Source of the DNA: an uncultured bacterium
GTDB lineage: Bacteria > Bacillota_I > Bacilli_A > RFN20 > CAG-826
NCBI GenBank assembly: GCA_949299335.1
Contig: CASGAD010000024.1
Span: forward strand, 1-48,983
Length of the DNA: 48,983 nucleotides
Direction of reading: 5' to 3'
The notes beneath the pieces are model-generated. The model was not told the origin of the DNA. It worked only from the letters and a program-made list of their open reading frames with translations, and made no database searches. Below, piece by piece: positions 10,470-12,814 of this stretch. A program made the translations under genes and the position numbers. Each line of letters opens with the position of its first letter. Position 1 is the first letter of the stretch.

Positions 10470-10496
10470 CATCAATCGACGTTAACTCGGTTTTTT
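10459..10496. terminator. Bidirectional terminator
   Basis: AAACCGAGTAAC pairs with GTTAACTCGGTTT (one bulge) across a ~10-base loop, with six T's after it on the plus strand and A's before it. It overlaps the ends of both convergent genes. Confidence 0.75.
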
Positions 10497-11428
10497 GTTT
10501 CTCCATTTATGTAGTTGAATAAATTGTCTTTTATAATTTCGAAGCGCTTTATCATGGCTTCTTTTGTGAAATACCCTATATGAGGTAATAGTATTAAATT
10601 GCTAAATGCAATTAGAGGGTCGTTACTATCTAATGGCGGCTCTTTATCATAAACATCTAACGCTGCCCCACTTATTAAATCTTCCTTTAAAGCTCTTATT
10701 AATGAATCTTTATCTATAATAGGTCCTCTTGCGGTATTTATAATTAATGGTTTTTTCTTCATCATTTTAAAGGAACTATAATCAAAAATACCTCTTGTTT
10801 CCTCGTTCAATGGAGTATGTATACTAATAATATCACTTTCATTTAATAAAGTATTAAAATCAATCTGAGATACATCCTTAGGTAAATCTTTAATTTTATG
10901 ATGAGAATAAGTCAAGATTTTAACATTAAAAGACTTTAATAACTCAAAAACTCTTCTAGCGATTTTTCCAAAACCAAAAAGTCCTACTACTTTATTTTCT
11001 AATTCTTCACCTAATAAATTCCCTTTAGTTTTTAAATCCCTGCTTACCTTATCAAAAAATAAAACATTTCTAAGGTAACTTATAATTAATCCAATCGTTA
11101 ATTCAGCAACAGCTTCTGTAGAATATCCACTGGCATTGCTTATAGTGATATTATGTTCTTTACAATAAGCCAAATCAACATGATCTAAGCCTGTAAAGGC
11201 AACATTTAGATATTTTAATTTTTTTGCTGCTTTTAAAACATCCCCTGTTGTTTTAATGTTATCAATAATTAAGACATCAGCATCTTTAATTCGATTTTGA
11301 TATTCTTCAATTGAAATAGGGGGATTTAGATAATAGAAAAATTCATGATTTAAACTAGCTAACTCAAATTGCAATTGTTTTAACTTATCTTCTTCTACAT
11401 TTAAAGAATTAATTAAAACAATTTTCAT
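10472..11428 (-). CDS. D-isomer-specific 2-hydroxyacid dehydrogenase
   Basis: A 318-residue NAD-dependent dehydrogenase. The Rossmann loop is GLFGFGKIARRVF near residues 150-162. The catalytic trio is present: Arg in NTARGPIID, Glu in DVYDKEPP and His in LLPHIGYF. The order (catalytic domain, NAD domain inserted) and length fit lactate/glycerate/phosphoglycerate-type members, but the substrate is not determined by these motifs. The ATG overlaps the stop of the ThyX-like gene by one base, so it is the last gene of the nfeD-SPFH-folD-thyX-like run. Confidence 0.85.
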   Translation of the reverse strand: MKIVLINSLNVEEDKLKQLQFELASLNHEFFYYLNPPISIEEYQNRIKDADVLIIDNIKTTGDVLKAAKKLKYLNVAFTGLDHVDLAYCKEHNITISNASGYSTEAVAELTIGLIISYLRNVLFFDKVSRDLKTKGNLLGEELENKVVGLFGFGKIARRVFELLKSFNVKILTYSHHKIKDLPKDVSQIDFNTLLNESDIISIHTPLNEETRGIFDYSSFKMMKKKPLIINTARGPIIDKDSLIRALKEDLISGAALDVYDKEPPLDSNDPLIAFSNLILLPHIGYFTKEAMIKRFEIIKDNLFNYINGETKNRVNVD

Positions 11429-12021
11429 TATCGTTTAACCCCAGTTAACTCCACAAACTTTGGTAAACTTTCACACCACTTGCAGAAATCGTGCCATTCA
11501 GATAATTTATGTTCTTTTCTTTGATTATACATGGTCTTTAATTGTTGATAATTTGTAACCATGGTGGCGCCAAGGCAGAAACCACATGGAGTAGAAGCAA
11601 CTAGTTCTTTCCATTTAGCTTTTTTCTTCTCTCTATCATTTTCATCAATTGCATTATATTCATCTTTAATTTTTTCAACGATAGCTAAAACTTCTTTATT
11701 GGTTTCGCTTACGCATTGAGAAGAAATATCAAATTTTAATAAACAATGCATTGTTGATTGAGAAGAAACATATTCAAAGAAATGGTACCTTTGAGCTTGT
11801 TTCCACCAATATAATGGTGCTGTAATATCAAATTCAACAACAATTCCTTTTAAATAATTATCGTGTCCTTCACCTCCACGGGAATTACCTAATTTAACAG
11901 CTCTTAAATAATCTTTTTCATTATTTTCTTCTCTATTTAATACTGTTCTCATAGGATTCCCGCTTGCTTTAATAGCGAACTCTAATCCGTAAATTTCTGT
12001 TTTTCCAATGTTAAAATTCAT
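11428..12021 (-). CDS. Divergent ThyX-like protein (flavin-dependent thymidylate synthase fold), overlapping folD
   Basis: A 197-residue protein. Residues 53-92 align by pattern to ThyX: H-D-N-Y-L-K where ThyX has HSPFEH, FDITAPLYWWKQAQRYH where ThyX has F-h-i-k-A-P-I-F..R-Q-W-F-R-H-R, and VSSQSTMH where ThyX has NELSGRY. The C-terminal TNYQQLKTMYNQRKEHKLSEW resembles the ThyX NaRsL..fl.lR...AQwEI helix. The ThyX signature is therefore only partly kept (RYH for RHR, Ser for the nucleotide-side Asn-Glu). The ATG at 12021 has a GAGGTT site and lies 11 bases inside the end of folD. FolD makes the methylene-folate ThyX uses, so the link is biologically coherent. True catalytic activity is inference. 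Confidence 0.55.
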   Translation of the reverse strand: MNFNIGKTEIYGLEFAIKASGNPMRTVLNREENNEKDYLRAVKLGNSRGGEGHDNYLKGIVVEFDITAPLYWWKQAQRYHFFEYVSSQSTMHCLLKFDISSQCVSETNKEVLAIVEKIKDEYNAIDENDREKKKAKWKELVASTPCGFCLGATMVTNYQQLKTMYNQRKEHKLSEWHDFCKWCESLPKFVELTGVKR

Positions 12022-12814
12022 TTTTTGTAACCTCACATAAATTCAATAACAAAGCAAGCCTTGTTAATAGCCCAACTCCTCCAGGAACTGGGCTTTGGTA
12101 TTTAACGTTTAAATTAGGTATTACATCGCCATGTAATTTACCATCTTCTCCTCGATTAATACCTACGTCAATAATCACTGAATTTTCATTTATATCAAAT
12201 TCATTCGATAAGAAGCCCTCTTTTCCAACAGCTACTATCACTAAATCTGCGTGTTTTAAATAAAAATTCATATCTTTTTTACTAGTTTTAGAATGTACTA
12301 CAGTAACATTCATATCATGTTCAAGAAGTAATTTTGCCATTGGCTTACCAACTATATTACTTCTTCCTATCACCAAAGCATTTTTACCTCTAAATTCAAA
12401 ACCATTATCTTTTAAATATGTAAAGATTCCAAATGGTGTAGCAGGAACAATTCTTGACAAAGGATTAAATCCATCAACATCTTTTTTAGGTGAAATTGCT
12501 AATTTAATTTTTTCCTCGTTTATATGCTTAGGAAGAGGCAATTGAACAATAAAACCATTGATTGAATCATCTCTATTTAACTTATCTACTAAGTTTAATA
12601 GTTCACTCTCTTTGGTTGATTCAGGCAATTTTATATGATCATAAAGAAAACCAACTTCAGTTAAATCTTTGATTTTTCCTTTAATGTAAGAATTGCTAGC
12701 AGGATCATCATTTACTTGAACTATTACAATTTTTGGCTTTTTGAATGGTGCATCTAAAGGCAACGCTTTTAGTTCTTCTTTTTTTCTAGCAACGTAATCT
12801 TTGATATTTTCCAT
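12011..12814 (-). CDS. folD: Bifunctional methylenetetrahydrofolate dehydrogenase / methenyltetrahydrofolate cyclohydrolase
   Basis: A 267-residue protein, slightly shorter than the usual ~285. The family block D-P-A-S-N-S-Y-I-K-G-K (catalytic Tyr and Lys) sits near residues 37-47, followed by GFIVQLPLPKHI, KDVDGFNP, the Rossmann loop VIGRSNIVGKP and the C-terminal SPVPGGVGLLTRLALL. The reaction interconverts methylene-, methenyl- and 10-formyl-tetrahydrofolate using NADP. The N-terminal helix is trimmed, starting directly at MENIKDYVARKK after an AAAGGAAT site. The gene sits between the SPFH gene and the ThyX-like gene and overlaps the latter. Confidence 0.93.
   Translation of the reverse strand: MENIKDYVARKKEELKALPLDAPFKKPKIVIVQVNDDPASNSYIKGKIKDLTEVGFLYDHIKLPESTKESELLNLVDKLNRDDSINGFIVQLPLPKHINEEKIKLAISPKKDVDGFNPLSRIVPATPFGIFTYLKDNGFEFRGKNALVIGRSNIVGKPMAKLLLEHDMNVTVVHSKTSKKDMNFYLKHADLVIVAVGKEGFLSNEFDINENSVIIDVGINRGEDGKLHGDVIPNLNVKYQSPVPGGVGLLTRLALLLNLCEVTKNEF

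Follow-up and report, generated by a model that had tools for sequence, protein, structure and literature searches.

Cells cannot do without thymidylate synthesis, which is usually assumed to be the work of two enzyme families, ThyA and ThyX. The flavin-dependent family, ThyX, is the closest described system to the gene considered here. In the enzyme of T. maritima, Arg78, Arg80, Ser88 and Arg90 hydrogen-bond dUMP (PMC3498832). The uracil is activated by Arg174, transfer of the methylene group is helped by Ser88 and Tyr91, and the R90A and Y91A changes strongly impair the T. maritima enzyme (PMC8316439). Bacteria that lack both thyA and thyX are also known, and these carry tdk (PMC1971073).

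The window analysed here is the whole of a 48,983-nucleotide stretch from an uncultured bacterium (GTDB lineage Bacillota_I; Bacilli_A; RFN20; CAG-826; contig CASGAD010000024.1 of assembly GCA_949299335.1). On its minus strand, at 11428..12021, lies a gene for a 197-residue candidate for a divergent ThyX-type thymidylate synthase, recognised by its open reading frame, its membership of the PHROG 6721 family, a ThyX fold and phyletic complementarity. Its upstream partner on the same strand is folD (12011..12814; PF00763/PF02882), which encodes a methylene-tetrahydrofolate dehydrogenase/cyclohydrolase. The candidate starts with the ATG at 12021 and overlaps folD by 11 bases, as an earlier, sequence-only reading of this DNA had claimed, and the Pfam matches back the identity of folD. 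A Shine-Dalgarno-like GAGG (12031..12034, minus strand) is located inside folD, 9 nt before the candidate ATG, and may couple translation of the candidate to that of folD. On the other side, the ATG of a D-2-hydroxyacid dehydrogenase gene (10472..11428, minus strand; PF02826/PF00389) overlaps the candidate's stop codon by one base. This gene adjoins the ThyX-like gene at only seven related loci and probably lies outside the candidate's function.

At all 48 chromosomal loci of the clade, folD stands directly upstream on the same strand, while some other neighbours vary. The linkage recurs in another family of the order (G059) and elsewhere in the class (G417). The sequence-only reading had taken separation of the two genes in all relatives as a sign against its proposal. 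They are apart in most other host families, in phages and in G117, where the gene lies near an anaerobic ribonucleotide reductase (nrdD), but adjacent throughout the clade.

The 197-codon open reading frame is real and conserved, with 59-89% identity across the 48 chromosomal loci, all of which are in Bacilli MAGs. Two relatives in a Ruminococcus assembly are about 30% identical. Further relatives are found in isolated phages of Fusobacterium, Clostridioides and Desulfovibrio, in plasmid records from Ilyobacter, Cetobacterium, Selenomonas and Monoglobus, and, by a profile-derived scan of IMG/VR, in at least 589 confirmed viral stretches. The PHROG 6721 profile matches the candidate end to end (E 2.1e-57, residues 2-194 of 197). 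Annotated copies of the family carry the name 'hypothetical protein', and no description of it was found in the open-access papers searched.

Sequence models of known synthases barely register the family. The window protein has no ThyX match in Pfam or NCBIfam (none to Pfam Thy1 at E<=5), and neither it nor the family profile matches any PDB sequence. A match to ThyA (PF00303) is likewise absent, both for the window protein and for 83 relatives. In the family alignment (A2; 83 members, mean column identity 40%), Thy1 matches 35 members weakly at E<=1, with a best E of 3e-5, and among the matches listed the scores fall below the gathering cut-off of 24.8 bits (best 21.3 bits). These weak matches speak for a distant relationship to ThyX in sequence.

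The predicted structure is ThyX-like. An AlphaFold (AF2) model built from A2 has a pLDDT of 95.1 and a pTM of 0.88. When it was compared with the PDB by Foldseek, the best 50 rows were ThyX only, led by 3ah5 (E 6e-7, TMq 0.69), and TMq reached 0.70 among them. The 47 best PDB entries in VIA-align were all ThyX or PolB (Z 13.9-10.9), including 6j61 (Z 13.9) and 1o26 (Z 13.1, rmsd 2.7 over 177 residues), after which Z drops to 4.6 for unrelated chains. Among viral models, annotated ThyX proteins come right behind the two best matches, both of them uncharacterised proteins (22-24% identical). The model thus has the ThyX fold along the whole chain, the outcome on which the sequence-only reading had staked its proposal. 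Standard annotation overlooks the candidate because this fold is combined with a different active-site signature.

The ThyX landmarks named by that reading are all present in the protein: GHDNYLK (H53), FDITAPLY..KQAQRYH (64-80), VSSQSTMH (85-92) and L..MYNQRKEHKLSEW (161-176). The altered RHR and NExS signatures are not due to chance, since Y79, S87, S89, M91, H92, R168 and H171 are invariant across the 83 members. The RHR place, assigned by alignment and by a fragment model of residues 1-82, corresponds to codons 78-80 (11782..11790, minus strand) and is occupied by RYH in most members and by TYK in a far branch. The equivalent of ThyX Arg78 (R78) is kept in 78 of 83 members and Y79 in 83 of 83, while the equivalent of Arg80 is His in 73 of 83. 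The NExSxRY place, assigned by alignment and by its invariants (83/83), corresponds to codons 86-92 (11746..11766, minus strand) and reads SSQSTMH, or NSxSxMH in the far branch. In contrast to NExSxRY, SSQSTMH has one inserted residue, so that the positions of Arg90 and Tyr91 become M91 and H92, both found in all 83 members. In this sequence-based mapping, the equivalents of Ser88 (S89) and Arg174 (R168; 11518..11520, minus strand) are also kept throughout (83/83).

When the 83 family members were compared with 13 close phage ThyX proteins, hhalign returned a rival register, pairing QSTMH with QLVRH, at only 6% probability. It was also chosen by a joint MAFFT alignment, whose T. maritima sequence agrees with printed segments. 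This register was rejected because it would turn helix 70-76 into an insertion, because APLYWWKEFDTYK..NSCSTMHK of the far members faces APIFVARQWFRHR..NELSGRYSK, and because the model of fragment 1-82 superposes on residues 7-81 of T. maritima ThyX, which places RYH at the RHR position within about one residue. The superposition is found with every listed T. maritima entry, and its Z of only about 4 lends the RYH/RHR register support rather than proof. Foldseek with fragment 1-82 alone gave no significant match.

The genome that carries the window is 98% complete. No ThyA, ThyX or DHFR was found in it, and it has one thymidine kinase. This was the check for thyA elsewhere in the genome that had been proposed with the original observation. 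Throughout the order, the three types of synthase proved mutually exclusive. The same 196 genomes of the order were searched for the family, ThyX, ThyA and DHFR, which occur in 72, 29, 80 and 79 of them, respectively. Pairwise overlaps of family, ThyX and ThyA are 0/0/0, and exactly one of the three is present in 181 of 196 genomes, or 136 of the 142 of high quality; 15 of 196 have none. DHFR (PF00186) is present in 0 of 72 family genomes and 0 of 29 ThyX genomes, and coincides with ThyA except in three genomes. The Fisher p of 5e-39 for this exclusion ignores kinship, and overstates independence because the genomes are mostly MAGs and mutually related. Single-contig genomes also fit the pattern, namely G101 within the order and, without ThyA, G321 and the genomes of f18.

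This exclusion is not a single ancestral event, since the family and ThyA alternate between species inside at least five genera (family:ThyA of 16:1 in g1, 11:8 in g19, 1:11 in g20, 14:8 in g23 and 1:12 in g26); the two have repeatedly replaced each other within genera. The genus of the window has the gene in 20 of 25 genomes; G004 is without it and, alone in the genus, has switched to ThyA with an adjacent DHFR. In G004 the ThyX-like gene is gone from beside folD (L246:3333-4124, G004:C17), and the folD match, as reported, contains one TAA. Four families outside the order account for 23 further genomes with the gene; 20 of them are without ThyA, and the two occur together in three.

Two further observations concern hosts. 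Three closed genomes of 2.4-2.8 Mb without ThyA (G264, G370 and G423) carry a standalone chromosomal copy (L236, L237 and L238) that forms a long branch of its own and may be the sole synthase of their genus. Of four high-quality genomes with no synthase that were tested, three (G018, G022 and G084) are also without folD, and are candidates for true thymidine auxotrophs or for a shared assembly gap; the fourth, G120, keeps folD.

Viral and plasmid copies lie among genes of deoxynucleotide metabolism. In 89 phage and plasmid loci, some of them near-identical, the pyrimidine 5'-deoxynucleotidase NT5C (PF06941) is encoded within 6 kb in 38, often overlapping the gene, with NrdD in 30, an NrdG-like protein in 29 and dUTPase in 23; all of these neighbours share the strand of the gene. 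The order in Ilyobacter is nrdD-nrdG-gene, and a dCMP deaminase gene stands close to one family copy within a prophage-like region. ThyA was found in 0 of 37 phage and plasmid records, many of which are fragments. A quick tree (SH-aLRT only, with long branches) places the folD-linked clade, f18 and two f20 groups apart from one another among viral sequences. These separate host positions suggest several exchanges between phages and hosts, in either direction.

Several features of the viral copies stand on their own. NT5C abuts or overlaps the ThyX-like gene at L141:6596-7153 and 37 further phage loci; a dNMP phosphatase beside a thymidylate synthase is an unexplained pairing that might bear on the true substrate. 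In two copies (L102:6001-6591 and L103:6001-6591), codon 141 is an in-frame TGA that aligns with Trp of most hosts, and their phages may read TGA as Trp. In two others (L149:5989-6573 and L152:3740-4324), codon 57 is an in-frame TAG that aligns with Gln or Asn of most phages, and these copies possibly belong to TAG-recoding phages. Two different ThyX-like copies occur on one viral contig in IMGVR_UViG_3300029305_000264 (L110, L115), and again in IMGVR_UViG_3300024999_000029 (L111, L141).

We consider it likely, with good confidence, that the candidate belongs to the flavin-dependent (ThyX) structural class of thymidylate synthases, forming a divergent branch that uses the methylene-tetrahydrofolate made by FolD and returns tetrahydrofolate. 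The gene is very probably the missing thymidylate synthase of a large group of gut bacteria and of many of their viruses. FolD and the candidate would be made together, and methylene-tetrahydrofolate would pass its one-carbon unit to bound reduced flavin. The flavin would hand this unit to C5 of dUMP and then reduce the adduct, so that dTMP is formed and the folate product is tetrahydrofolate, not dihydrofolate. With tetrahydrofolate as the product, the cell would have no need of DHFR. From the alignment, R168 would activate the uracil like ThyX Arg174, S89 would act as Ser88 does, and H92 would take the place of Tyr91 as general acid.

Against a synthase stands the replacement, in every member, of Arg90 and Tyr91, two residues held to be conserved in ThyX, along with the change of RHR to RYH. 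The three genomes outside the order that hold both the family and ThyA, and G120, which keeps folD with no synthase, also count against it. The changes at Arg80 and Arg90, which hydrogen-bond dUMP in ThyX (PMC3498832), could point to a ThyX-fold C5-methylase or hydroxymethylase with the same chemistry and another substrate, such as UMP, deoxyuridine, dUTP or a phage-modified pyrimidine. PolB, which methylates UMP/dUMP, turns up as a structural neighbour (4p5b, Z 12.5), and NT5C is the commonest phage neighbour. Yet in bacteria the family replaces ThyA with DHFR, or ThyX, one for one, and the dUTPase and NrdD neighbours fit a supply of dUMP, so that another substrate seems unlikely. Even a thymidine product, with thymidine kinase, could still amount to a thymidylate pathway.

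The same altered signature residues might instead mark a repurposed flavoprotein (a regulator, an oxidoreductase or a partner of FolD) in cells that take thymidine from the environment through Tdk. Thymidine kinase is encoded in nearly all of these genomes (38 of 41), so thymidine salvage is possible, and tdk-carrying bacteria without thyA and thyX provide a precedent (PMC1971073). However, Tdk is just as common in genomes with ThyA or ThyX, loss every time ThyA and DHFR are present would not be expected of a dispensable flavoprotein, and phages carry the family widely in dNTP gene clusters. We judge this explanation to be very improbable. MAG binning errors, or families that the models overlooked, are hardly credible as the source of the exclusion pattern: the genomes are mostly MAGs and 15 of 196 have none of the three types, but the high-quality and single-contig genomes show the pattern too. 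Of the two options offered by the sequence-only reading, a new branch of thymidylate synthases is strongly favoured over a repurposed flavin enzyme as the predicted function.

A bolder version of the synthase reading is also conceivable, and we hold it only tentatively. The family might represent a third working solution to thymidylate synthesis on the ThyX scaffold, in which Tyr79 and Ser87-Gln-Ser89-Thr-Met91-His92 form the core of a remodelled active site that needs neither the arginine nor the tyrosine of ThyX, perhaps with another nucleotide form as its substrate. It would have spread via phages of anaerobes and become the sole synthase of large gut lineages on several separate occasions. 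A divergent sister branch of ThyX with the same overall reaction is nevertheless the most economical reading.

If a synthase of this kind is indeed encoded here, a pathway gap would be filled in many gut Bacilli that can now be scored as thymidine auxotrophs, and a large phage family so far without a function would acquire one. Intrinsic insensitivity to trimethoprim would be predicted in these bacteria because they have no DHFR. The family would also serve as a natural experiment on which active-site residues of ThyX flavin-mediated methylation really requires.

Among known systems, ThyA with DHFR fills this metabolic role in sister species, but has an unrelated fold and mechanism and yields dihydrofolate. 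PolB is part of natural-product synthesis. This UMP/dUMP methylase of Streptomyces cacaoi (PDB 4p5a/4p5b) has the ThyX fold in common with the candidate; no PolB-type natural-product gene cluster was seen in the loci read, and the candidate family, unlike PolB, replaces the essential synthase and has folate and dNTP genes around it. PHROG 6721 (Fusobacterium phage Fnu1, C. difficile phiCDIF1296T, Desulfovibrio ProddE) is the same family by sequence, a set of phage proteins given no function, and the folD-linked chromosomal branch of hosts lies outside that collection. ThyX itself (PF02511 Thy1; T. maritima TM0449, H. pylori ThyX) shares the whole-length fold (Z about 13, rmsd 2.5-3.0), the order of landmarks (H53, AP69, the 78-80 motif, Ser88, Asn163, Arg174) and the genomic logic of lacking DHFR, with only about 8-17% identity in structural alignment. 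The candidate falls outside ThyX as presently defined, because it lacks the RHR and NExSxRY signatures and scores below the Pfam threshold; by fold, residues and genomic logic, it is predicted to work like ThyX.
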